Shown here in pieces: positions 48,368 to 64,000 of a DNA stretch of 64,000 bases (the first letter of the stretch is position 1; every line of letters begins with the position of its first letter). The notes beneath the pieces were generated by a model. It was not told the DNA's origin, ran no database searches, and saw only the letters and a program-made list of their open reading frames with translations. Origin of the DNA: Lachnospira pectinoschiza (GTDB taxonomy: Bacteria > Bacillota > Clostridia > Lachnospirales > Lachnospiraceae); the NCBI RefSeq assembly GCF_020564355.1, contig NZ_JAJCRR010000001.1, positions 62,001 through 126,000 of the forward strand, given 5' to 3'. Position numbers and translations under genes: made by a program.

Positions 48368-48391
48368 TGTAAAAAGGAAATGGAGAAAAAG

Positions 48392-49033
48392 ATGAGGACA
48401 TCAACGACAAAAACAAAAGATATGGTAACAACGGCAATGTTTGTGGCAATTATTCTTGCAATGTCGTTTGTGCCGTATTTAGGCTATATCCCGCTGGGAT
48501 TTATGAATGCAACAATTATTCACGTTCCGGTTATTATCGGAGCGATACTGTTAGGACCAGCGCGCGGTGCATTTTTAGGCGGTATTTTCGGACTAACCAG
48601 CATGATTAACAACACATTTAACCCGAACCTGACTTCTTTCGTATTTTCACCGTTTTACAGCCTTGGAAATGTGCATGGAAATTTTAAGAGTCTGATGATC
48701 TGCTTTGTGCCGAGAATTCTGATTGGCGTTGTGGCATATTATGTATATACAGGGATTGTAAAGCTTGTAAAGAAGAAGAAAAACGACGGAAAAGGCAGTG
48801 CTGCTGCACTGGCGGCAGCCGGTGCGGCAGGAGCGCTTACGAATACACTGCTTGTTATGAACGGCATTTACTTTTTGTTTGGAAGCAGTTATGCCAATGC
48901 AAAGGGAATTGCGACAGATGCCCTGTACGGTGTGATTCTTGGTGTGATCGGAACACAGGGCGTACCGGAAGCGATTGTGGCGGCGGTGCTGACTGCGGCA
49001 ATCGGAAAAGCACTGCTTCATATCAGACGGTAA
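48392..49033 (+). CDS. ECF transporter S component, probable pantothenate (PanT-like)
   Basis: A six-helix substrate-binding membrane subunit of an energy-coupling-factor vitamin transporter. The sequence has the typical MVTTAMFVAIILAMSFVPYLGY start and ARGAFLGGIFGLTSMI loop, with a basic linker KKKKNDGKG in mid-protein. ATG 48392 (GGAG 7 nt upstream) is preferred to 48380. Specificity is inferred from context: coaX and coaBC follow at once, so the likely substrate is pantothenate. The shared ECF ATPase and T subunits are elsewhere. Confidence 0.82.
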   Translation: MRTSTTKTKDMVTTAMFVAIILAMSFVPYLGYIPLGFMNATIIHVPVIIGAILLGPARGAFLGGIFGLTSMINNTFNPNLTSFVFSPFYSLGNVHGNFKSLMICFVPRILIGVVAYYVYTGIVKLVKKKKNDGKGSAAALAAAGAAGALTNTLLVMNGIYFLFGSSYANAKGIATDALYGVILGVIGTQGVPEAIVAAVLTAAIGKALLHIRR

Positions 49034-49077
49034 TAGAAATGTTGATATTTTAAGAAATAAAACAAAAGGAAAAGAAA

Positions 49078-49890
49078 ATGAAAAGACAAAATCAAAAAGG
49101 CATGATTCTTGCGATTGATATGGGGAATACTAATATTGTAATCGGCTGTGTAGATGATGAAAAGATTTATTTTGAAGAACGGCTCTGTACGGATTATTCA
49201 AAGACGGAATTAGAATATGCAATCGGTTTTAAGACCGTTTTGGAGTTATATAATATTGAAAGTGAACAGATTCACGGTGCAATCATTTCATCGGTCGTAC
49301 CGCAGCTTGTAAACGTTATCAAGTCGGCAGTTGAAAAAATCATCGGCATTACGCCGCTAATTGTAGGACCGGGTGTGAAGACGGGATTGAATCTGTTAAT
49401 GGATCAGCCAAAGCAGGTCGGTACGGATATGGTTGTAGATGCAGTTGCGGCTATTCACGAATATGGTGCACCGGTGCTGATTATTGATGTGGGAACGGCA
49501 ACGACCATCAGTGCGGTTGACGACAAGAAAAATTATGTGGGAGGTGCGATTCTTCCGGGTATCCGCGTATCGGTGGATTCACTGGTATCCCGGACAGCAC
49601 AGCTTCCGCGAATCAGTCTGGAAGCTCCAAAATCCGTGATTGGAAAGAATACGATTGCGTGTATGCAGAGCGGTGCAGTTTACGGGAATGCAAGCTGTAT
49701 CGACGGCATGGTTGACAGAATCCGTGAAGAACTGTGCAAAATGACGGGTGCAGAACAGGAACAGGTCAAAGTCATTGCAACCGGCGGACTGGCAAGGGTG
49801 ATCGTGCCATACTGCCACAATGAAATTATATTAGATGATAAACTGCTTTTAAAAGGTTTAAAAATCATTTACGATAAAAATGTGGAATAG
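49078..49890 (+). CDS. coaX: type III pantothenate kinase
   Basis: Phosphorylates pantothenate, the first step of CoA synthesis (ASKHA fold). The phosphate-binding motif is LAIDMGNTNIVIG. GTDMVVDAVAA and VIDVG-type IIDVGTATTISAVD carry catalytic Asp residues, and GGAILPGIRVSVDSL is conserved. 270 residues is slightly long because of an N-terminal MKRQNQKG extension; Met9 is an alternative start. It lies between the S component and coaBC, giving an uptake-to-CoA module. Confidence 0.94.
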   Translation: MKRQNQKGMILAIDMGNTNIVIGCVDDEKIYFEERLCTDYSKTELEYAIGFKTVLELYNIESEQIHGAIISSVVPQLVNVIKSAVEKIIGITPLIVGPGVKTGLNLLMDQPKQVGTDMVVDAVAAIHEYGAPVLIIDVGTATTISAVDDKKNYVGGAILPGIRVSVDSLVSRTAQLPRISLEAPKSVIGKNTIACMQSGAVYGNASCIDGMVDRIREELCKMTGAEQEQVKVIATGGLARVIVPYCHNEIILDDKLLLKGLKIIYDKNVE

Positions 49891-49899
49891 GAGAGGACT

Positions 49900-51111
49900 A
49901 TGTTAAAAGGGAAAAACGTACTGCTTGGCGTAACCGGCAGTATTGCAGCGTATAAAATTGCGACACTTGCCAGCAGCTTAAAAAAGCTGGAATGTAATGT
50001 AGATGTCATGATGACACAGAATGCGACCAATTTTATCAATCCGATTACATTTGAATCTTTAACCGGTAATAAATGTGTTGTCGATACATTTGACAGAAAT
50101 TTCCAGTTTCAGGTAGAGCATGTATCCCTTGCAAAAAAGGCGGATATTGTGATGATTGCACCGGCGAGTGCCAACGTGATTGGCAAGCTGGCATCGGGAA
50201 TTGCAGATGATATGCTGACAACGACATTTATGGCGTGTACATGCAAAAAAATTGTCGTTCCGGCAATGAATACCAACATGTATTACAATCCGATTCTACA
50301 GGATAATATTGCAAAGTTAAAAAGGTTTGGCATCGAAGTGTTAGAACCGGCAAGCGGGTATCTTGCGTGCGGTGATACAGGTGCGGGAAAAATGCCGGAG
50401 CCGTCTGAACTGCTTGAATACATTTTACGCGATATTGCCCTGACAAAGGATATGAAAGGATACCGCGTGTGCATTACCGCAGGTCCGACACAGGAAGCGA
50501 TTGACCCGGTGCGCTACATTTCCAACCATTCAACAGGAAAAATGGGATATGCGCTGGCGAAAAATGCGATGCTGCGCGGGGCAGAGGTGACACTGATTGC
50601 AGGTCCGACCAACCTTCCTGACGTGCCGTTTGTTAAAATGGTGCATATTACATCGGCACAGGATATGTATGAAGCGGTTACAGAGGCGGCAAAGGAATCA
50701 GACATTATTGTAAAAGCGGCAGCAGTTGCGGATTACAGGCCGGCATCAGTCAGTGATGAAAAAATCAAGAAAAGCGACGGAGAGATGAGCATTGCCTTGG
50801 AGCGGACAAAGGATATTATCGGAACGCTCGGAGCGATGGAAAACAAACCGTTTTTGTGCGGATTTTCAATGGAAACACAGAATGTACTGGAAAATTCCAG
50901 AAAGAAGCTGGAAAAGAAAAATCTGGATATGGTGATTGCCAACAATCTGAAAGTAGACGGTGCAGGATTTGGAACGGATACAAACGTGATTACGATGATT
51001 ACAAAGACGGATTGTACGGAATTTCCGAAAATGAGTAAATTTGAAGTGGCAGGCTGTATTTTTGATGCGATTATAAAGAATATGAAAGCACGGAGAACAG
51101 ACGAAAAATAA
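49900..51111 (+). CDS. coaBC: phosphopantothenoylcysteine synthetase/decarboxylase
   Basis: A bifunctional CoA enzyme. The N-terminal CoaC flavoprotein domain has GVTGSIAAYK, catalytic His in VEHVSLAK, substrate clamp PAMNTNMYYN and the Cys of GYLACGDTGAGKMPEP. The C-terminal CoaB domain has ITAGPTQEAIDPVRYISN and KAAAVADYRP. 403 residues, complete. Only 9 nt after coaX, with SD AGGAGAG. Confidence 0.95.
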   Translation: MLKGKNVLLGVTGSIAAYKIATLASSLKKLECNVDVMMTQNATNFINPITFESLTGNKCVVDTFDRNFQFQVEHVSLAKKADIVMIAPASANVIGKLASGIADDMLTTTFMACTCKKIVVPAMNTNMYYNPILQDNIAKLKRFGIEVLEPASGYLACGDTGAGKMPEPSELLEYILRDIALTKDMKGYRVCITAGPTQEAIDPVRYISNHSTGKMGYALAKNAMLRGAEVTLIAGPTNLPDVPFVKMVHITSAQDMYEAVTEAAKESDIIVKAAAVADYRPASVSDEKIKKSDGEMSIALERTKDIIGTLGAMENKPFLCGFSMETQNVLENSRKKLEKKNLDMVIANNLKVDGAGFGTDTNVITMITKTDCTEFPKMSKFEVAGCIFDAIIKNMKARRTDEK

Positions 51112-52895: not shown

Positions 52896-53267
52896 AAAAC
52901 AACTTAGAATTAAGGAGTAGTATATAAAGAATAAATAACACATATTTTAAATAATTAAACAAAATTTATAATAATAATTGCAATCTGAATAGAATTGTGA
53001 TATTCTTCTAATAGAATATATTCTAAAAATAAAACCGCAAACAACGGTTGATTTCTAAAACTTGAAATTTTGATTAAGGTTTTATCTGCGTTTTAGGGAT
53101 GAAATTTTGATTAGAACGGATAGTTTATCCCAAGTAGTATTTTCTATTGACATTTTTATGGGTTCATCTGTTTAATATCCCTTAAAATCCAAAAAGATTT
53201 AGAAAATTCATGAAAATCCTTGCCGGCAGTTCAAGTAGTCTATTATAATAAAAGAAAGGAAGAAAGC
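52896..53267. other. AT-rich gene-free stretch with direct repeat
   Basis: Strongly AT-rich, with no gene seen. TGAAATTTTGATTA occurs at 53063-53076 and 53100-53113 (37 bp apart). A TTGACA near 53150 may be the -35 of the Rpn gene, but its -10 spacing is poor. Confidence 0.5.
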
Positions 53268-54275
53268 ATGGTAAATACACCTTACGATGATGTGTTCCGT
53301 ACCCTGTTAACGGATTGTACGGCACTGATTATACCGGTTGTAAATGAACTGTTTCACACAAGTTACACCGGAAAAGAAACAATACATCTGCTTCAAAACG
53401 AGCACTTTATAAAGCTGCCGGACGGCAGTGAACAGGAGCGCATTACGGATTCCAGCTTTGAAATCCTCGGTAGAGAAAGAAAGCGTTATCATGTTGAGTG
53501 CCAGAGCACGGAAGACGGAAGCATGATAGTACGTATGTTTGAGTATGATACACAGCTTGCACTGGAAAACAGAGAAGTTACAGCGGGTGCACTGGTAGTT
53601 CATTTTCCTGATTCCGCAATCGTAGCCCTGCGCCATACGAAAAATACGCCGGAGGTGATGACGGTAATGATACGCACACCGGGCGGGGAAGTATCGTATG
53701 CTGTTCCGGTATTAAAAGTCAGACAGTATACAGTAGAAGAAATCTTTGAGAAAAAGCTGTACTTTCTGATACCGTTTCATATTTTTGTTTATGAAAAGAG
53801 TTTTAAAGAACTGGAAGAAAACAGCGAAAAATTAGCGAAGCTGGAAGAGGAATATACAGCAATAGTAAACCGTCTGGAAGAAGACCGTAAGAACGGTGAT
53901 TTAAACGAATACGAAAAGGTTACAATTCTTGAAATGTCAGATACAGTAATAAAACATCTGGCGGCAAAATATGAAAAGGTCAGGAAAGGAGTTGGAGAGA
54001 GTATGGGTGGAAAAGTATTAGAGTATGAAGCAAAGGATATATTAAACCGCGGTCGTGCCGAAGGATATCTGGAGGGAGAAGCCTGTGGACGCCGCGAGGG
54101 GCGTGATGAAGGACGTGCCGAAGGCGAAATCACTGGAATGAAAAAAGCCAAAATACAGTTAGCCGCAAAATTATTGCAGGCAGGGAACAGCGTTGCATAT
54201 GTGGCAGACCTGACGGAACTGCCGGAAGAAACGGTGCAAAAGTTGTCGCAGGCAGTCGAGCGTGAAGATGAATAG
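53268..54275 (+). CDS. Rpn family (PD-(D/E)XK) recombination-promoting nuclease
   Basis: A PD-(D/E)XK nuclease of the Rpn/transposase_31-like family. N-terminal MVNTPYDDVFRTLLTDC, catalytic core DSSFEILGRERKRYHVECQS (Asp...Glu-x-Gln form), central helical linker, and the family's characteristic charged C-terminal region with RAEGYLEGEACGRREGRDEG-type repeats, then LLQAGNSVAYVADLTELPEE. ATG 53268 follows AAAGGAAG. Such genes are often multi-copy and mobile-element-like. Flanking DNA is AT-rich and a GGCGGCTT/AAGCCGCC hairpin follows at 54304-54333. Confidence 0.82.
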   Translation: MVNTPYDDVFRTLLTDCTALIIPVVNELFHTSYTGKETIHLLQNEHFIKLPDGSEQERITDSSFEILGRERKRYHVECQSTEDGSMIVRMFEYDTQLALENREVTAGALVVHFPDSAIVALRHTKNTPEVMTVMIRTPGGEVSYAVPVLKVRQYTVEEIFEKKLYFLIPFHIFVYEKSFKELEENSEKLAKLEEEYTAIVNRLEEDRKNGDLNEYEKVTILEMSDTVIKHLAAKYEKVRKGVGESMGGKVLEYEAKDILNRGRAEGYLEGEACGRREGRDEGRAEGEITGMKKAKIQLAAKLLQAGNSVAYVADLTELPEETVQKLSQAVEREDE

Positions 54276-54434
54276 GAAAAATAAAGCATTTTATCAAAGT
54301 AACAGGCGGCTTATCTGAAACAAAAAAGCCGCCCAACTCTTAAATCTCTATTTTCCTAGTATCAAAGTAGGGATTTTGCAAAAACAGTCTGGAAAAATCT
54401 CATTTTAAACAATAAAATTTATCAATAAGACTTT

Positions 54435-54456
54435 TTTGTTGCACTTGCGCAACAAA
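54435..54456. promoter_or_regulatory. palindromic operator candidate 1
   Basis: TTTGTTGC-ACTTGC-GCAACAAA, perfect 8-bp arms. Confidence 0.6.
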
Positions 54457-54513
54457 TTGGGAAAGCAGGAAATCAAAGGGATTGTTAAAGAAAACAGGTA
54501 AAAAATACCGTTG

Positions 54514-54535
54514 TTTGTTGCAGGTTTGCAACAAA
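54514..54535. promoter_or_regulatory. palindromic operator candidate 2
   Basis: TTTGTTGC-AGGTTT-GCAACAAA. Arms are identical to site 1 and centres are 79 bp apart. It ends 9 bp before the -35 box. Confidence 0.65.
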
Positions 54536-54544
54536 AATGTCTGC

Positions 54545-54573
54545 TTGCCAAAAACAAATGTCTGTGGTACACT
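54545..54573 (+). promoter_or_regulatory. promoter of the surface-protein locus
   Basis: TTGCCA, 17-nt spacer, TACACT. It gives a ~200-nt leader before the 54777 gene. Confidence 0.55.
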
Positions 54574-54590
54574 GCCACTGCAAACGAAAG

Positions 54591-54614
54591 ATAGGCTTTG
54601 AAGCCTATTTTTTT
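54591..54614 (+). terminator. promoter-proximal terminator-like hairpin
   Basis: ATAGGCT-TTGA-AGCCTAT followed by a seven-T run that begins with the last stem base, only about 10 nt after the predicted start. It may attenuate the locus. No known riboswitch core is recognised in the remaining leader (54615-54776). Confidence 0.6.
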
Positions 54615-54776
54615 AAGTGCCACGGTTAGATAAGACTAATGGAAGTTACCAAAACGAAACTATGCCATAAAACAAAAAACAAGACAAAAAATAAAACAAA
54701 AACATTAGTACATTCGTAAAATCAACAGGGCACGATAGAAACAAGTAAACAGGGACAAAGCAGAAAGGAAAGAAAA

Positions 54777-57700
54777 ATGAGAAAGACCAGCTTTAAGTTA
54801 TTATCTGCTTCATTAGCAGTCGCAATGACAATGAGCAGTATGCCGTACAATGTATTGGCGGCAAGCCCGGAGCAGACATTTGCACAGGCAGTACAGCAGG
54901 CACAGACCACAGAAGCGGACGGCTTTGAAACAGCCGCACCGTCAGAGGAAAATCTCGTAACAGCAGATGCAGAAAGTACAGAAAAAGTAACCTACACAGT
55001 TACACCGGGTGTTTCATACGGAAAGGGAAGTATCAAATTAATCTCAGGTGTGACAGAAAGCACCGGTGATGACGGTGAAAAAGTATACACGGCTGAAAAA
55101 GACAGCACAATTACATTTGAAGCTGTACCGGAGGACGGCTGGGCATTAGATTCTGTTATGTACATGTCAGCAAGCTTTACAACACCGGACTTAAAGATTA
55201 CAAAGGTAGACGGCAAAGATAACCAGTATACATGCACAATTCCTGACGATGCATATGCTTACGGCTCAGTAGGAACATTTATGATATATGTGCAGTTTGC
55301 ACCGGTTCTGGAAGAAGGACAGTATGAGATAAAATCAACAGGTGAATATTTAAGTGTAGATAAGTATGGTGCAAAGCCGGGTGAAACCGTAAAGATTACA
55401 TCAACAAGTGACAGTTCAACAAGAAATTATGTGCCGACTGTTGCAGATGAAGACGGAACCGGTATTGATACAACACTTGAAAGTACAGTGATTGATGAAG
55501 ACGAAAATAAGATTGTACAGGTATACACCTTTGTAATGCCGGAGAAAAAGGTTACAATCACAGAAAAGAGTAATCGTTATTGTGCAATTACATTAGAAAC
55601 CAATGACGACAGTAAATTTGCAAGCCATGTAAGTTACAGCAGCCGACAGATGATGAGTGGTAATATGAATGTTGTAGCAGACAGCATTATCGACGGCAAG
55701 TATTATAAGCATACAGTAACCGTAACCGGTACACAGGGAAATACAACAGTAAAGCCGGGAGAATTATCATCACTTGCAAGCGGAAAAGCAACATATACCG
55801 TAGCAAAGAAATTCCCGGTAGCCGTTACTTTAAGAGTAGACTTCGTTGAAACAGATGCGTATAACATTACAAACCAGTCTGCAAATATTGAAGGTGCCGA
55901 TTTTACCGTATCAAACGGTGAACTTGCGGCAGAAGGCGATACCGTAACATTACTGCTTTCCACAAATACAGCAGACGGATATTACTATGACGGTACAACA
56001 CTGCCAAAGGTAACAGACGCAGACGGCAACGAAGTAACCGTAACAGCAGATGCAGGAAACACAACATCTTCTGCAAAATTTACATTCACAATGCCTGAAA
56101 AGGGTGTCACAACAAGCTTTGACAGTTCTGCAATTACACAGAAAGAATTAAAGGCTGTTACCGTTGCAGATGAAGCAAAGTCTTATATTGCACTGGATAA
56201 AACAGAGGCAAGAGAAGGTGAGAATGTCACAATTACTTTGACAGACGAAGCAAAAAAGGTTTTATTTATCAAAGTGATTAAGGAAGACGGCAGTGTCGAA
56301 TATATAAGAAACTCTGCAACGAGCTTTACAATGCCGGCAGGCGCAGTGACAGTATCGGTAATTGCACCGGACAACTGGTTTGAAGAAGGACGTTATGATA
56401 CAGATGTATATGCGGCAACATCAAGCACACTGATTGTATCCGATGCGGCAGACCTTGCGGCTGTCGGTAAATTAATGCGTGATAATCCAAGCGCACTTAC
56501 GGATAAAACCATTAATATTGTAAAAGATATTGATATGAGCGCATATACATGGGTGCCGATGACATATACAAATTACAATAATACAGTAACCTTTAACGGA
56601 AACGGACATACCATTAAGGGACTGAATGTAGAAGGCATGACAGGAACAACATCAAGTTCATGGGTATATTCAAGTGCATTTATCGCACAGATAGGCAGTT
56701 TCACAGATGTCACTATCAACGACCTGACATTTGAAGGAACACAAAAAGTCCATACCGTTGCAGGCACATTCTGCTATTTAGGCGGTATTGCTTATGGCGG
56801 CGGTTCTTACAACAAGGTCGTAAACAATATGAATGTGACCATTGACGGTGCGACAGGCGGTACGGTATTGCATTACCCTATTACAAATAGTGCAACACAA
56901 ATTGTAAACAGTGCGGTAACCGGCAAGACAACACTGGAAAATGTAAATTTAACCGGATATTATTCATATTATGGACTTTCAGACAGAGCAGTCAACAGCT
57001 ATGATATTTCAGAGATTACCATGGGTGAAAATGCAAATCCGGCAAATGTATCTTATTACGGTGTGGACGCTACTTTACAGGCAAAAGATAAGACTGCAAA
57101 CTGCTACACAGGTACAACATTAAATAATTTCCCTGAAAATGCACAAATTTACGGAATTGCAAAGACTGTTACAGGAGAGAATCTGGATTCTCTTAATCAG
57201 AACTTTACATACATCACACCGGTAACAGCCGAGGGTTATGAAAATGACAACTTAATGTCTGTTGACAGCACAACCAACAAGGTCGGCAGGATTGCACTGG
57301 TTACATACTTAAACAGCTGGGTTGATGAGAACCAGACAGAGGATAACAAGTATTGCAAGTGGGAAACAGACAAGACAACAGGCAGACCGGTATTAAAGGC
57401 AGCCGAAGAAACGGTTGTTTCACAGAAATATGCAATCACTTCAAACGTAACAGGCAGTGAATACGGCGAAACAACAGTTGACGAAGAAGCCGCAGAAGGC
57501 AGTAAGGTAACTGTATACACAGCACCGAAGTCATTCTGCAAAGTAAAGAGCATTTCCGTAGAAACAGCAGACGGAAAGAAAGTTGACGTAACAGACAACG
57601 GTGACGGAAGCTACAGCTTTACAATGCCGAAGTCCGCAGTAACCGTAAGCACAGAGTATGCACAAGACTCTTATGCAATTACGGCAGAAACCAACGGCGA

Positions 57701-60700
57701 AGGTACAGTCAGCGTATTAACGGCTGAAACAAAGTCTTCCGATAAGGCAAAATCAGGCGAAACCGTAACCGTTACCGTAACACCGGACCGCTTAAAGTAT
57801 TACACAATGGACAGCGTAACCGTGACAACGGCAAGCGGCAAGACGGTTGAAGCCACAACAACAGAGGCAATTAACGGAACAAATGCCCATGAGTATACAT
57901 TTACCATGCCGGAAGAAGCTGTAACAGTTATGGCAAACTTCAAGGATGTCAGCAGCTATTACAACGAAGACGGTTCTTTAAAAGAGGGTACATATAAAAT
58001 GCAGGCAGTATTCGGCAGTACCTATTACATTGACACCGACAAAATCGAAGGTGCAATGGGCTATGAAGAACAGTACACAGACATTACCGTAAGCGTTGAT
58101 GCAGAAGGCAATGTAACCGTAGACGATTATGAAATGCCGGGTGTAAAAAGCCCGATTGGATACGCAGGCGGCGGTGAACTCTGGATTAAGTCCACACCGA
58201 CACCGGATGCCAACGACAACGGAAAGATTAAGGGCGCAGATGATGCAGGCGTTGTAGAATCCAGCGATTATGCCGAAAAGTATGAAAACTATACAAAGGT
58301 ATACACCATTTCACCAACCGTTACAAAGACCGGTAAGATTAATCCGTCAACCAACGTAAAGACAGAAAACACAGGCGATTTCTACTTTACAAAGGTTATG
58401 CAGGGAAGTAAGCAGGTCGGCGGCTTCTATAACAGTGAAAATGTAGAATCCGTTACATTGGATAAGCTTGCTTCATCAACAAGCAGTAAGGTAGCACCGT
58501 TTAACCTGACATTCTCCGGTATCAATTACATTAAAAACGATGCGGATTATGCAAACCAGAACGTGTTATTTACAACATACATTACAGAAATGGCTTACAT
58601 TTCAGAAGTATTGTTCCGTATGGACTTCTCAACGATTGAAAAAGTCGGTGATACAGACCAGGGCGAAGAAACAACACAGGCATTAGATGTATCTGTTTAT
58701 ACAGCGTGCGAACCGGGTGCCACAAAGACACCGCCTGCAAACATTGATGCAATCAAGAGTGCAACACTGGTAACAAAGGCAGACGGAAGCAGACAGCTCG
58801 TATTTGACTTAGGCGAAACAATCGTATTCGGCTTACACGGACATATGGGAAGCCTTCGTGTATACAATGCAGACAGCATGGAAAATGCATTTAAGGCAAT
58901 CTCAAAGAATGATACAAGCGGCTTAAAGTCAGCAATTTACAGCAACTGGTATACAGACAAGATTAATTCCGAAGCAGACAGCGTGGCATATGATAAGACA
59001 CCTGTAGAAGTAACAGACAGCAGAGGATATGTATACTACACAACAGACGGAACAGAATTTAGCGCAACGTCCACAACAACAGACCTTGAAAATGCACTCG
59101 TATATCCGGGTAAGGCAGTTGTAGATGTACCGGACTATTTCGACCTGACAGACAACAATGAAATTTATCTGACAGGCTTTATCGACGGTATGTCAAAGGA
59201 TACGAACTTAAAGTTAAAGCTGACAGCAAAAAATGAAGACAACACACCGGTTGTAAAGACAGGTACAGCCCATATTTCACAGTTCGGTGAATATGATGTT
59301 ACTGTCAATGTAACAGTTACAGATGATGTTATCACAGACATTGAAGTAACAGGTGCAAATTTTGCGGGAACTTATGCTGAAACCAATAAGATGATGCTTG
59401 AAAAGGCAGTCAACGGCTTAAAGGGCAGCTACATCAATAAGTCCGCAACCGATGTAAAGGAAATCACAGGTGTTGATGCGGTTTCAGGCGCAACGTATTC
59501 ATCCAATGCAATCCGCGATGCGATTTTAAATGCACTCGAATTAAAGCAGGAAGAAGAAGTCATTAACCTTCCGACAGAAAAGCTTGCAGAAGGCGAATAC
59601 AGCGTAGACATTGCATACTACACAGACAAAGTAAAGCACAGTCTTGTGGAAAATGACAAGACAAAGGCAAAGATTGTTGTTGACAAAGATGGCAACATGA
59701 CACTCGTAACAGACATTATTAACGGAACGTCAAAAGAACCGTTATATATCTATGGCTTCAACGGCTACTATGAAGGCAATGATACTTCTAAGAGCTTAAA
59801 GGAAGCTGCGGTCGAAATGAATGACATTCAGTACAGCGATGATGTATTCGGTGAAGATGAAAAGGTTGTAACAAAGGTTTCCTTCCCGTTAGAAGGTGAT
59901 TTTGCGGCAATCTACAACACCAATGCAGATATCTATGTACCGGCAATGAAGAATTTAAACGGCTTCGTTTCAGGCATTGACTTCAAGCAGGGACGTTTCA
60001 GCGCAGACTGCTTCGTAAAGGTTTACTGGGACAGCTTAACAAAGACATCATCTGATAATAATAAGTCCGATGATACAACAAAGGAAACAACTTTCGGTTC
60101 AGCAAAGACCACTCTGACAGCAGGTACTTATTCAATCCCTGCAAGCTTAAAGAATGCCGGAAATGTTTCACAGGATTCTATGGCGGCAGGCTGCATTAAG
60201 AGTGCACAGATGACTGTTGCGGCAGACGGAACAGCAGCTGTAACCGTAGATTTACAGTCCGTATCCTTTGCGGGACTGACAGCTTACGCAAGCAACTGGA
60301 AGATTTATCAGGGAACGTCAGCAGATGGTAAGACTGTAGATGCACAGTACACAACAAACGAAGAAGGCAGAGTGACACAGATTACATTTACACTGCCGGA
60401 CAACAGCTATGACGGTGTTTATGTCAACATGTTTGTCGATGCGATGAATTACAGCCCGGATGCTTATCTGGCACTGGATTATGCAAATGCGGTAAAGACA
60501 GCAGAACCGGACCCGGCACCAACACCGGACCCAGCCCCGACACCGGAACCGACTCCGACTCCTGACCCGACACCGGATCCGGAACCGACACCAACTCCGA
60601 CACCGGACCCTTCTGACAATAAAATTGCTGACGGTAACTACTATGTACCGATTGCATTGTGGAATGCGGTATCCGATAAGGCTTCTATGGGTAATGCGGC

Positions 60701-61760
60701 ATTTGAAAAGAACAGCAGTGCTTTAATCACCGTAAAGGATGGCAAGGTTGTAAAAGTTCAGATTGCCATGAATCCGGTAACCGTAACATCAATCTACAGC
60801 GCCGTTACGGCATTTGAGGTAGAGGGCGTAACCGTTACAATCGACAAGACAGAAAAGATTACAACTTCCGCAGGAAATGAAGTCGATGCAATCAGACTGG
60901 TAACATTTGAACTTCCTGAAGGTGCACAGCCTTCCGTTGCAGATATTACTTATGCAGATGTAAGCTTTAAAGTACCGGATACACCAATGGGCGACACCAT
61001 GATGAGTGCGAGATTAAGATTCGACTGGTCAGCACTGACAGCAACAAGCGATACTTCTCTTGTACCGGCAGAAGACCAGACAGAAGAAAAGTCACCGGCA
61101 GTTGATGTGACGGATGAAAAGACAGGCGTTCATGTATCAGCCGCAGAAGGTGTCCTTCCGGTAGGCTCTGAGTTAAAGGTAACAAAGGTCAGTGCAGGAA
61201 CAGAATATACAAAGGCGGCAAATGCACTTGTAGATGTCGGCAGCAGCTTTGAACTGTATGAAGTTCATTTTGAAAAGGACGGACAGGAAGTTGAGCCAGA
61301 CGGCAGTGTTGTTGTGAAGTATCTCATTCCGGCAGGCATGAATGCAGACAACGTTGTTTTATACCGTATCAATGATGACGGTTCAAAGACCCTCATTAAG
61401 GGCAGTGTGGAAAACGGCTATTATGTTGTGACAACAAAGGGCTTCAGTTATTACGCACTTGTTGAAAAGGCATCAACAGATAACGGCAATAAAAATAATA
61501 ACAACATTGATAACAATGGTAACAACAGTGGTAATAATAACAGCGGCAATGCAGGCACAACCGACAACGGTTCGGCAGCAGGCGGTAATTCAAATACGGC
61601 AGGCGGCTCAGCCAATACGGCAGACAACAGCAACAGCGGCGTAAAGACAGCGGATTCTTCCGCAATGGGCATGTGGGCAGCAGCATTCTTTGCTTCCTTA
61701 AGTGCCGCAGGTCTTGCAATCTTTAAAAGAAAGAAAAGACCGGAAGAAAAAGAAGACTAA
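54777..61760 (+). CDS. giant cell-wall surface protein with NEAT-like and FMN-binding domains
   Basis: A 2327-aa exported protein. Signal peptide 1-29 (cleavage after NVLA). Residues 30-1060 are beta-rich, with five F(T/V)MPxxxVT-type repeats and a beta-helix-like segment (about 578-800). NEAT-like modules follow at about 1068-1290, 1601-1755, 1780-1907 and 1950-2089. An FMN-binding domain (about 1492-1593) carries DAVSGATYSS; Thr1573 is the expected site for covalent FMN. Then come a Pro-Thr-Asp linker (1908-1948, before the last NEAT-like module), a ZU5-like region (about 2110-2230), an Asn-rich stalk and a sorting-like VKTADSS, TM and KRKKR tail. NEAT-like modules suggest haem handling, but canonical YxxxY axial motifs are not clear. 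First gene of the haem-type locus. Confidence 0.8.
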   Translation: MRKTSFKLLSASLAVAMTMSSMPYNVLAASPEQTFAQAVQQAQTTEADGFETAAPSEENLVTADAESTEKVTYTVTPGVSYGKGSIKLISGVTESTGDDGEKVYTAEKDSTITFEAVPEDGWALDSVMYMSASFTTPDLKITKVDGKDNQYTCTIPDDAYAYGSVGTFMIYVQFAPVLEEGQYEIKSTGEYLSVDKYGAKPGETVKITSTSDSSTRNYVPTVADEDGTGIDTTLESTVIDEDENKIVQVYTFVMPEKKVTITEKSNRYCAITLETNDDSKFASHVSYSSRQMMSGNMNVVADSIIDGKYYKHTVTVTGTQGNTTVKPGELSSLASGKATYTVAKKFPVAVTLRVDFVETDAYNITNQSANIEGADFTVSNGELAAEGDTVTLLLSTNTADGYYYDGTTLPKVTDADGNEVTVTADAGNTTSSAKFTFTMPEKGVTTSFDSSAITQKELKAVTVADEAKSYIALDKTEAREGENVTITLTDEAKKVLFIKVIKEDGSVEYIRNSATSFTMPAGAVTVSVIAPDNWFEEGRYDTDVYAATSSTLIVSDAADLAAVGKLMRDNPSALTDKTINIVKDIDMSAYTWVPMTYTNYNNTVTFNGNGHTIKGLNVEGMTGTTSSSWVYSSAFIAQIGSFTDVTINDLTFEGTQKVHTVAGTFCYLGGIAYGGGSYNKVVNNMNVTIDGATGGTVLHYPITNSATQIVNSAVTGKTTLENVNLTGYYSYYGLSDRAVNSYDISEITMGENANPANVSYYGVDATLQAKDKTANCYTGTTLNNFPENAQIYGIAKTVTGENLDSLNQNFTYITPVTAEGYENDNLMSVDSTTNKVGRIALVTYLNSWVDENQTEDNKYCKWETDKTTGRPVLKAAEETVVSQKYAITSNVTGSEYGETTVDEEAAEGSKVTVYTAPKSFCKVKSISVETADGKKVDVTDNGDGSYSFTMPKSAVTVSTEYAQDSYAITAETNGEGTVSVLTAETKSSDKAKSGETVTVTVTPDRLKYYTMDSVTVTTASGKTVEATTTEAINGTNAHEYTFTMPEEAVTVMANFKDVSSYYNEDGSLKEGTYKMQAVFGSTYYIDTDKIEGAMGYEEQYTDITVSVDAEGNVTVDDYEMPGVKSPIGYAGGGELWIKSTPTPDANDNGKIKGADDAGVVESSDYAEKYENYTKVYTISPTVTKTGKINPSTNVKTENTGDFYFTKVMQGSKQVGGFYNSENVESVTLDKLASSTSSKVAPFNLTFSGINYIKNDADYANQNVLFTTYITEMAYISEVLFRMDFSTIEKVGDTDQGEETTQALDVSVYTACEPGATKTPPANIDAIKSATLVTKADGSRQLVFDLGETIVFGLHGHMGSLRVYNADSMENAFKAISKNDTSGLKSAIYSNWYTDKINSEADSVAYDKTPVEVTDSRGYVYYTTDGTEFSATSTTTDLENALVYPGKAVVDVPDYFDLTDNNEIYLTGFIDGMSKDTNLKLKLTAKNEDNTPVVKTGTAHISQFGEYDVTVNVTVTDDVITDIEVTGANFAGTYAETNKMMLEKAVNGLKGSYINKSATDVKEITGVDAVSGATYSSNAIRDAILNALELKQEEEVINLPTEKLAEGEYSVDIAYYTDKVKHSLVENDKTKAKIVVDKDGNMTLVTDIINGTSKEPLYIYGFNGYYEGNDTSKSLKEAAVEMNDIQYSDDVFGEDEKVVTKVSFPLEGDFAAIYNTNADIYVPAMKNLNGFVSGIDFKQGRFSADCFVKVYWDSLTKTSSDNNKSDDTTKETTFGSAKTTLTAGTYSIPASLKNAGNVSQDSMAAGCIKSAQMTVAADGTAAVTVDLQSVSFAGLTAYASNWKIYQGTSADGKTVDAQYTTNEEGRVTQITFTLPDNSYDGVYVNMFVDAMNYSPDAYLALDYANAVKTAEPDPAPTPDPAPTPEPTPTPDPTPDPEPTPTPTPDPSDNKIADGNYYVPIALWNAVSDKASMGNAAFEKNSSALITVKDGKVVKVQIAMNPVTVTSIYSAVTAFEVEGVTVTIDKTEKITTSAGNEVDAIRLVTFELPEGAQPSVADITYADVSFKVPDTPMGDTMMSARLRFDWSALTATSDTSLVPAEDQTEEKSPAVDVTDEKTGVHVSAAEGVLPVGSELKVTKVSAGTEYTKAANALVDVGSSFELYEVHFEKDGQEVEPDGSVVVKYLIPAGMNADNVVLYRINDDGSKTLIKGSVENGYYVVTTKGFSYYALVEKASTDNGNKNNNNIDNNGNNSGNNNSGNAGTTDNGSAAGGNSNTAGGSANTADNSNSGVKTADSSAMGMWAAAFFASLSAAGLAIFKRKKRPEEKED

Positions 61761-61782
61761 GCTGTAAAAAAGACAAAACAAC

Positions 61783-61815
61783 GGCATCCGTTCCGAAAAG
61801 GGGCGGGTGCCTGTT
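61783..61815 (+). terminator. partial terminator/processing hairpin
   Basis: GGCATCCGTTCC (61783-61794) / GGGGCGGGTGCC (61800-61811) with bulges, followed by TGTTTG. It would reduce read-through to the Shp-like gene. Confidence 0.5.
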
Positions 61816-61849
61816 TGTCACATATAAAAATGAAAGCAGGAGTACAGAC

Positions 61850-62884
61850 ATGGAACAGAAATTTAAAATGCAGATTCAGCGGCTTGCAAAGCATGCAGCG
61901 GCAGTATTGACGGCAGTCACCGTGGGCATTTTATCGGCGGCGGCAGTATTTTCACAAAACAGTAATCCGGTATATGGAGCAGAAAACGGCATTTATCTTG
62001 CCGGTGCAAATCCAAGCTATCGTAATCCGTCCACCGGTGCGATTGAAGATTCCGGCGGGGAAGGTTCGGCGGTTCTGGGACAGTCCATGACAGAGAGCGC
62101 GACTTACGGCAGGGCACTTATCGAAGCAGACCCGGCGGGAAACACTTATGCCACAATCCGTATGCAGTTAATGGACAATATCGAAAATCCGCAGTTTCAG
62201 GTAGATGGAAGTCCGGTATCCGCAACGTTAATGCAGGAGGATTACTCAAGCAATACCGCGGATTACAGATTCCGCGTCAACAGTGAAAATTCGGTTGTAC
62301 GTGTGAATATGTATGTAACTGCCATGGGACGTGATATTATTTACTATATTACATTTTCGGGACTGAGTGAAGGCGCAGGCGACTTTATTACCAGTGTGAC
62401 CGTTGAAGAAAAGGGCGGCAGTGCCGGTCCGGACAGCGCAGAGGGTGGCAGTGAAGAAAGCAACCCGGGAGAAAGCAGTTCAGGAGAGCGCGGTGTAAGT
62501 GCGCAGGCTGAAAATACCGCATCAGGCACGGGCAGCTTATCGGGTGAAACCGGTGCGTCAGCCGGAACAGACGGCAGTCAGGAAAATGCCGGAACACAGA
62601 GCATAGAGCAGGCAGAAGGTGAAAGTGCAGAAAGTACGACAGAAGCCGGACAGACTACATCAGCAGAAGCAAATGCCGTACAGGCAAAGACCGCAGAAAA
62701 CACACAGACGAAAAATGCCGGAATTCAGGAATATGATGCGGCAGGGAAACAGGTCAATGCAGAAGCGCAGGAGAGCAAAAAAAACAGCAGCACCGGCATT
62801 TTTATCGGAATGGGTGTTGTAATTGCCATTGTTGTGACAGGTGCGGCATGGTACATGCTTATGTATCGTAAAAAGAAAAACTAA
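61850..62884 (+). CDS. Shp-like haem-binding surface protein
   Basis: A signal peptide (about 1-43, ending near NPVYGAENG) is followed by a ~140-residue haem-binding domain: GIYLAGANPSYRNPSTGAIE, SYGR-like ATYGRALIEAD, ATIRMQLMDNIENPQF and VRVNMYVTAMGRDIIYYITF. Two Met positions (RMQLMDN and TAMGRD) fit the bis-methionine ligation of streptococcal Shp. A long Ser/Glu/Ala-rich low-complexity stalk leads to a C-terminal transmembrane helix and RKKKN tail. SD AGGAG. It would pass haem from surface NEAT proteins to the IsdE-like lipoprotein 12 nt downstream. Confidence 0.78.
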   Translation: MEQKFKMQIQRLAKHAAAVLTAVTVGILSAAAVFSQNSNPVYGAENGIYLAGANPSYRNPSTGAIEDSGGEGSAVLGQSMTESATYGRALIEADPAGNTYATIRMQLMDNIENPQFQVDGSPVSATLMQEDYSSNTADYRFRVNSENSVVRVNMYVTAMGRDIIYYITFSGLSEGAGDFITSVTVEEKGGSAGPDSAEGGSEESNPGESSSGERGVSAQAENTASGTGSLSGETGASAGTDGSQENAGTQSIEQAEGESAESTTEAGQTTSAEANAVQAKTAENTQTKNAGIQEYDAAGKQVNAEAQESKKNSSTGIFIGMGVVIAIVVTGAAWYMLMYRKKKN

Positions 62885-62896
62885 AGGAGCAGACAA

Positions 62897-63811
62897 ATGA
62901 AACGACAGGTAAAAAAGACTGTTCAAAAAGGACTTTGTATGCTGTTAGCGGGCGTTGCTGTTCTTACGGCATCGCTTCCGCTGACAGCCTGTGTAGACCA
63001 GCACCCGGATTCCACAGAGGGACAATCACAGGCAGACAGTGTGCGTCTTGTGGCAACGTCACCGGCAGCTGCACAGATTTGTGACAAACTGGAATTAGAT
63101 TTAGTGGGCGTATGCCGGACCTCCGGTACACTGCCAGAGCGGTATAAGGATGTTACGCAGGTTGGAACGGCAATGTCGCCGGATATGGAGATTTTAAAAT
63201 CCTTATCGCCGGATTATGTGCTGTCCCCGAACAGCCTGCAAAGCGATTTACAGCCGAAATATGCGTCAATCCAGGTGAAATCCCTGTTTTTAAATTTAAA
63301 AAGTGTATCCGGCATGTATGCTTCGATTGCAGACCTCGGTGAAAAATTTAACAGGCAGCAGCAGGCACAGGCAATGGTGGACGAATTTAACACATTTATG
63401 CAGGAATACAAAAATAAAAATGCAGGAAAAGAAGCCCCGAAGGTTCTGATTCTGATGGGACTGCCGGGGTCTTATATCGTGGCAACCGAAAACAGCTATG
63501 TCGGCAGCCTTGTGGAAATGGCAGGCGGACAGAATGTATACGCGGGTACTGATGAAGAATTTTTAAGTGCTAACACAGAGGATATCAAAACGAAAGAACC
63601 CGATGTGATTTTACGGGCATCCCATGCAATGCCCGAGCAGGTACAGCAGATGTTTGCCGATGAATTTGAAAAAAACGACATCTGGAAGCATTTTGCGGCA
63701 GTACAAAACGGCAGGGTGTACGATCTGGATTCGTCCCTGTTCGGCATGAGTGCAAATTTTTCATATCAGCAGGCACTCGAAGCATTACAGCCGATGTTGT
63801 ATAACAACTAA
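62897..63811 (+). CDS. isdE: haem ABC transporter substrate-binding lipoprotein, IsdE-like
   Basis: A class III (FecB/IsdE-type) binding protein of 304 aa. Lipobox LPLTACVD; then VRLVATSPAAAQICDKL, LDLVGVCRTSG, MSPDMEILKSLSPDYVL, VLILMGLPGSYIVATENSYVG and NDIWKHFAAVQNGRVYDL, which track closely with staphylococcal IsdE. It follows the Shp-like gene with SD AAAGGAG. The permease and ATPase genes normally downstream are missing; a glycosidase gene with its own promoter follows. Confidence 0.87.
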   Translation: MKRQVKKTVQKGLCMLLAGVAVLTASLPLTACVDQHPDSTEGQSQADSVRLVATSPAAAQICDKLELDLVGVCRTSGTLPERYKDVTQVGTAMSPDMEILKSLSPDYVLSPNSLQSDLQPKYASIQVKSLFLNLKSVSGMYASIADLGEKFNRQQQAQAMVDEFNTFMQEYKNKNAGKEAPKVLILMGLPGSYIVATENSYVGSLVEMAGGQNVYAGTDEEFLSANTEDIKTKEPDVILRASHAMPEQVQQMFADEFEKNDIWKHFAAVQNGRVYDLDSSLFGMSANFSYQQALEALQPMLYNN

Positions 63812-63847
63812 AATTCTGTAGTTTTTCATAAAATAAAAAATAATCGG

Positions 63848-63876
63848 TTGCTTATCTTTTTTTTGTAGTGTACAAT
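63848..63876 (+). promoter_or_regulatory. promoter of the last gene
   Basis: TTGCTT, 17-nt spacer, TACAAT. Confidence 0.55.
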
Positions 63877-63914
63877 AATAAAGACACAGTACATATTTAA
63901 TAAGGAGAAAAGCC

Positions 63915-64000
63915 GTGGATATTATAGTAAAGTATATTGATGAATTGTTGGAAAAAAGCACGCCGGAAGCGCCGATGTGGAATATTGAAAAGCTCAAGCA
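63915..64000 (+). CDS. glycoside hydrolase 88/105-like protein, 3' end outside window
   Basis: A GTG start with SD AAGGAG encodes MDIIVKYIDELLEKSTPEAP then MWNIEKLK at the edge. This N-terminus resembles unsaturated rhamnogalacturonyl/glucuronyl hydrolases (GH105/GH88), which act on pectin-derived disaccharides. Only 28 residues are visible, so the call rests on a short match from memory. Its own promoter separates it from the haem locus. Confidence 0.5.
   Translation, partial: MDIIVKYIDELLEKSTPEAPMWNIEKLK

Follow-up and report, generated by a model that had tools for sequence, protein, structure and literature searches.

What is a flavin domain doing among the NEAT modules of a giant surface protein? 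The question is raised by P0001, a 2327-residue protein encoded in a 64,000-nucleotide stretch of DNA from Lachnospira pectinoschiza (contig NZ_JAJCRR010000001.1, positions 62,001 to 126,000; this whole stretch is the window, and its numbering is used throughout). A flavin mononucleotide (FMN) domain of the FMN_bind family sits between NEAT modules in this protein, and genes for haem-binding proteins follow its own. We lean towards reading P0001 as a wall-attached, Shr-like haem receptor with a built-in covalent FMN domain that reduces haem during the relay. The more specific proposal, that FMN_bind and the adjoining module N2 form a dedicated extracellular haem reductase in which ferric haem, as it is captured on a specialized His/Met NEAT module, takes up electrons from the covalent flavin, is put forward only tentatively. 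The parts of the protein that bear on both proposals are as follows.

54777..61760, + strand: P0001, giant secreted surface protein of 2327 residues (one open reading frame; homologues of the same length)
58677..59231, + strand: NEAT module N1b, residues ~1301-1485 (profile match 1316-1412; iterated profile E 9e-14)
59295..59540, + strand: FMN_bind domain (PF04205), residues 1507-1588
59475..59495, + strand: flavinylation motif DAVSGAT, residues 1567-1573, predicted acceptor Thr1573 (motif search; relatives)
59577..60041, + strand: NEAT module N2, residues 1601-1755, immediately C-terminal of FMN_bind (His1621 and Met1724 invariant in relatives)
60099..60482, + strand: NEAT module N3, residues 1775-1902, with the Met pair Met1802/Met1890 (profile E 6e-49)
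60615..61028, + strand: NEAT module N4, residues 1947-2084 (profile E 3e-29; Pfam 8.7e-6, below cut-off)

The reading frame runs uninterrupted from its ATG start through 54777-61760, and it can be accepted as a real gene because near-identical homologues of similar length exist (P0002-P0004, 2293-2330 residues, 98-99% across the searched part). The first-pass annotation, made from the sequence alone, had described a single 2327-residue protein with an FMN_bind domain and a DAVSGATYSS motif with its acceptor at Thr1573, and each of these descriptions holds. PF04205 matches residues 1507-1588 above its gathering score in the whole protein (E 1.2e-8, 35.8 bits against a cut-off of 22) and again in the cut segment (E 4.9e-11). 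The motif begins at residue 1567, which makes its Thr residue 1573, and no other D..[ST]GAT occurs within P0001. Across 38 representative cores, each comprising FMN_bind and N2, the acceptor Thr is present in all 38 and the Asp in 37, with SAT replacing GAT in three. This pattern suggests that FMN is covalently attached at Thr1573. Core loci were counted as 27, in Lachnospiraceae and other Clostridia, after a Paenibacillus locus with only a 30-residue match (L028) was excluded from the 28 listed. ApbE, the transferase that would load the flavin, was found in 25 of the 27 genomes, the two misses being one draft genome and one metagenome-assembled genome. Its presence is nevertheless permissive rather than specific evidence for flavinylation of P0001, because PF03116 (RNF/NQR-type subunits) occurs in 26 of the 27 and RNF/NQR-type complexes are themselves ApbE clients.

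The NEAT assignment took more than a Pfam search. PF05031 gave no match at E<=1 on whole P0001; on cut segments, residues 1755-1905 (E 4.4e-6, 27.6 bits) and 1945-2110 (E 8.7e-6, 26.6 bits) were detected below the gathering score of 32.8, and segments 1072-1330, 1330-1500, and 1595-1755 had no Pfam NEAT match. The domain search suggested in the first-pass annotation thus comes out divided, with PF04205 passing and PF05031 below its gathering score in segments and absent from the whole protein. Relatives that carry FMN_bind do exceed the PF05031 cut-off, for example the L010 and L016 proteins, and precomputed assignments place the two families together in 12 of 53 homologues and in 113 of the 120 proteins listed from a further 479 (both counted by eye). 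Iterated profiles were then built from N2, N3, and N4 over 56 related proteins, a training set that includes P0001 and is to that extent not independent of it. They place NEAT modules at residues 1316-1412, 1601-1735, 1775-1902, and 1947-2084 (N3 profile E 9e-14 to 6e-49). The Pfam-negative N1b was also aligned by hhalign to family NEAT modules from other proteins (96%, E 1e-9). Together, the profiles and hhalign bear out the original description, in which the NEAT-like modules number roughly four and the FMN_bind domain lies between them. A VIA-align 2 run on Foldseek candidates yielded a NEAT structural match for the FMN_bind-N2 core, which accordingly has a NEAT fold; the Foldseek search itself ranked FMN domains first and had no NEAT domain among the 50 matches listed.

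Whether these modules are suited to haem was assessed at their ligand columns, compared across 181 NEAT modules gathered by likeness to P0001 and L010. The first column (Met1802 in N3) holds Met in 119 modules, Ala in 30, Leu in 28, and Thr in 4, and the second (Met1890) holds Met in 106 of the 151 rows having a residue there; 75 of the 181, N3 of P0001 included, have Met at both. At the Tyr-type ligand site, YxxxY of strand 7/8, N2 and N3 have Met, and the Y...Y matches of P0001 lie elsewhere. A 2025 study shows that both NEAT domains of Shr ligate haem through a pair of Met residues, and it makes the case that Met can serve Fe(II) as well as Fe(III) haem (PMC12796733). Because of this precedent and the Met residues at the ligand columns, the modules of P0001 look Shr/Shp-like and not Isd-Tyr-like, as far as sequence can tell, and their ligand-like Met and His residues suggest that they may bind haem. 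N2 follows a pattern of its own. Leu in the first column and His two columns before it occur in the identical 28 rows, with the second Met kept in all of them. A flavinylation-type motif lies within the preceding 130 residues of 28/28 His-x-Leu modules versus 8/153 other modules; therefore, the N2 signature was not seen apart from FMN_bind in the 181-module set. His1621 and Met1724 are invariant in all 38 divergent cores from Lachnospiraceae and other Clostridia. By its residues, N2 looks like a Met module minus one Met, with a fixed His nearby. This pairing also bears on the suggestion that the flavin's substrate is non-haem ferric iron or some other surface acceptor, with haem binding by the NEAT modules independent of it and the fusion serving co-localization only. 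FMN_bind proteins are indeed tied to many extracytosolic redox functions (PMC8238504). However, FMN_bind and N2 are adjacent and share their invariance, and no gene for a ferrous-iron transporter stood out next to the core, where no dedicated search was made and many flanking open reading frames are unannotated; we consider a non-haem acceptor highly unlikely.

The setting of the gene points to haem as well.

61783..61811, + strand: terminator-like stem-loop with a weak T tail, between the P0001 gene and shp (consensus match only)
61850..62884, + strand: Shp-like membrane-anchored haem-binding protein (PF11545, E 1.3e-49)
62897..63811, + strand: IsdE/HtsA-type haem-binding lipoprotein (TIGR03659 equivalog, 404 bits against a cut-off of 299)

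The Shp-like gene starts about 90 bp after P0001, and its product has a hydrophobic C-terminal anchor and aligns to the solved streptococcal Shp (2q7a), with Met present in both ligand regions. The IsdE gene begins 12 bp after shp; its product aligns to Staphylococcus aureus IsdE (2q8p) and keeps the GxxM and H-x-M-P stretches, whose residues we take to include the haem ligands. The haem link of P0001 is strengthened because these two genes lie directly downstream. Inside the window no importer permease stands next to IsdE, a new reading frame beginning near 63914; in relatives, FecCD/ATPase importer genes adjoin IsdE. An Rfam search over 54000-64000 returned nothing at gathering scores. The arrangement resembles Shr-Shp-HtsABC (SiaABC) of Streptococcus pyogenes in its large surface NEAT protein, Shp, IsdE/HtsA lipoprotein, FecCD-type importer (in relatives), and Met-type ligand columns; as with Shr, the P0001 gene lies upstream of shp and IsdE, and N3 is a NEAT module with predicted bis-Met ligation. 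In contrast to Shr, P0001 has the His-x-Leu plus Met pattern of N2, and it is not classed as Shr because a Pfam scan of the protein and its segments matched neither HID domains (PF07550) nor leucine-rich repeats. Shr is not known to carry an FMN_bind domain. The Met ligand columns of N2 and N3, Shp, and the flavin domain likewise separate P0001 from the Tyr-type NEAT proteins of Isd (Staphylococcus) and IsdX (Bacillus). With ApbE-flavinylated extracytosolic FMN_bind proteins, the multi-flavinylated ones included, P0001 shares PF04205, Dxx[ST]GAT, secretion, and probable wall attachment, and it differs from them in its single flavin motif, NEAT fusion, and haem-operon setting. Each half is known. 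We class the system as a variant NEAT haem relay of the Shr/Shp type and do not count P0001 as a member of Shr.

How regularly does the core travel with haem genes? All 27 genomes with core loci have Shp, and 25 have IsdE above cut-off. Core and Shp lie on one contig in 19 of the 27, no more than 6 kb apart in 18, and on separate contigs in the other 8. In L010-type loci the order is a 163-residue protein, a secreted 314-residue protein (NEAT-like by iterated profile, E 2e-4, Pfam negative), the FMN-NEAT protein, Shp, IsdE, FecCD, the ATPase, and two ATP-binding cassette (ABC) exporter halves. Among 397 genomes drawn from the family to which G001 belongs (G001 is the closest relative in the genome collection), the core occurs in 7, and Shp occurs in 7/7 of those versus 19/390 others (Fisher 2e-9); five of the seven had served to find the core, and the two independent ones, G053 and G283, both have Shp beside it (2/2, p 0.003). 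In a 200-genome sample that overlaps the first, 53 genomes gave a match to A1 and 4 spanned the whole core, the 49 partial matches not being counted as cores; Shp is in 4/4 of these and in 17/200 overall. Sixteen of the 19 Shp genomes without a core in the 397-genome set were examined (G091, G138, and G352 were left out). At 15 of the 16, Shp lies in NEAT-Shp-IsdE-type operons of varying completeness, and the A1-derived profile found no FMN_bind in the stretch read. In a Shr/Shp/Hts-like pathway the flavin is an optional addition, since Shp loci lacking the core keep this operon type. The same loci could be taken to mean that P0001 is an ordinary Shr/Isd-type haem receptor whose FMN_bind domain is structural or vestigial, without a working flavin, and the two genomes without detected ApbE and the three SAT cores would fit that explanation too. 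However, the acceptor Thr never varies and the Asp does so once, ApbE is found in all but one draft genome and one metagenome-assembled genome, and we regard an idle flavin domain as quite unlikely. The sixteenth of the examined genomes, G128, was included because of its FMN match. At L029:3-7976 it encodes an FMN_bind-like protein of 2657 residues, truncated by the start of the locus, that contains DTVSGAT and has no detectable NEAT module; the gene ends some 8 kb upstream of Shp, and the haem cluster around it lacks the FMN-N2 core.

For a surface function, the two ends of P0001 matter.

54777..54863, + strand: signal peptide, residues ~1-29 (sequence reading; no signal-peptide program used)
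61641..61760, + strand: sortase-like anchor, residues 2289-2327, with VKTAD, a hydrophobic stretch, and KRKKR (sequence reading)

The protein had been called wall-anchored at the outset; its C-terminal tail and the AKTGD or VKTGD tails of relatives (others have SLH or choline-binding repeats) agree with that description, and attachment of P0001 to the wall is what they suggest. In our preferred reading, the NEAT modules would capture haem at the wall and pass it through Shp and IsdE to the FecCD/ATPase importer, a route drawn from homology. ApbE would load FMN onto the FMN domain, which would donate electrons to ferric haem on the adjoining N2, with its one Met and an invariant His near the missing Met's place. 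The haem could then move along the Met-ligand NEAT/Shp relay, whose neutral ligands would accept it in either the ferrous or the ferric state. Reduction might help in that host carriers based on Tyr or His may release ferrous haem more readily, and ferrous haem may be a good match for Met ligands. A comparable covalent-FMN protein is given a potential of -184 mV (PMC10339131). Electrons might reach the FMN domain from RNF or another flavinylated membrane protein. In G001, the cluster at L035:136-9530 places ApbE close to a four-FMN_bind protein and to an FMN_bind surface protein of 1241 residues that bears choline-binding repeats. This cluster is a separate flavinylated chain, and its four-FMN_bind protein could bridge membrane and wall.

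The same cluster, together with the PF03116 proteins, is in keeping with a different role for haem. Haem could be the cofactor of N2 and not its cargo, making FMN-N2 a flavocytochrome-like extracellular wire to acceptors, with the haem operon merely supplying haem. N2 stands out among the NEAT modules and pairs with FMN_bind, and a group of flavinylated wall proteins that act in electron transfer has been described (PMC8238504). Against a wire, no electron-transfer gene was recognized among the annotated genes of FMN-NEAT operons, where the recurrent ones are Shp, IsdE, FecCD, and the ATPase, and we think this role unlikely. The first-pass annotation had offered both reduction of ferric haem or iron and a link from haem uptake to extracellular electron transfer. 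Shp and IsdE support its connection to haem, reduction outside the cell is what the FMN_bind-N2 pairing would imply, and general electron transfer is the weaker reading.

It had also held that the domain combination was not known as a characterized system. No functional description of NEAT with FMN_bind was found in the literature among the matches listed, and haem acquisition and extracytosolic flavinylation did not meet in the literature searched; the term "NEAT" is absent from the main text of PMC8238504 and PMC11334425. The combination itself was within sight of others, as databases label some P0001 relatives "NEAT domain-containing protein" and a 2014 survey of NEAT proteins, in its legend to Table S1, gives "FMN" as one of their additional features (PMC4143258). 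In the literature consulted, haem uptake of the NEAT type is described as protein-to-protein handover with no dedicated reduction step. FMN_bind fixed to a special N2, with residues invariant in every core, implies an extramembrane redox step in some gut anaerobes, and proteins of the P0001 type would connect haem acquisition with extracytosolic flavinylation. If the tentative haem-reductase proposal is true, the surface relay of an anaerobe runs on ferrous haem, and haem import in Gram-positive bacteria includes a redox-driven step. FMN-N2 is a small expressible two-domain unit (about 266 residues) for direct tests of flavin-driven haem reduction.

Two further regions of P0001 lie N-terminal of the modules described above.

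57444..57668, + strand: divergent InlB B-repeat (Flg_new_2, PF18998), residues 890-964 (Pfam)
57981..58646, + strand: possible extra NEAT-like module N1, residues 1069-1290, unproven (likeness by eye)

PF18998 scores above cut-off on the cut segment, in two stretches (E 3.6e-8), and below it on the whole protein. N1 (residues ~1066-1293) is not claimed as a NEAT module: it is Pfam negative, hhalign gave 2.7%, and an AlphaFold model of residues 1066-1490 (N1 and N1b) had a predicted local distance difference test score of 38. Just upstream of P0001, an open reading frame at 53220-54275 has a weak match to the Rpn-family nuclease/transposase (TIGR01784, E 2e-7, below cut-off), and at 48380-51111 an ECF transporter substrate component, type III pantothenate kinase, and CoaBC stand in tandem as a coenzyme A precursor cluster.

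Other NEAT-like proteins are encoded in or beside the haem operons of relatives. At L002:4322-5149, L005:4384-5217, and L049:5760-6638, these operons are flanked by genes for regulator-like proteins that combine a winged-helix at the N-terminus with a NEAT-like domain at the C-terminus. The winged-helix is MarR_2 in L002 and L005 (in L005, MarR_2 E 3e-8 and NEAT E 6e-6, below cut-off). Similar regulators have a NEAT profile match in L003, L008, and L045 and a helix-turn-helix without Pfam NEAT in L029, L030, L042, and L053. These proteins could be intracellular haem sensors built on the NEAT fold. A pair of ABC exporter half-transporters (~590 residues each) regularly follows the haem importer genes (L010:17022-20575; equivalents in L012, L015, L020, L021, L024, L027, and L040-L043) and possibly serves haem export or tolerance. 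Finally, L003:5733-8003 encodes NEAT modules and Shp fused in a single protein of 756 residues (PF05031, PF11545).
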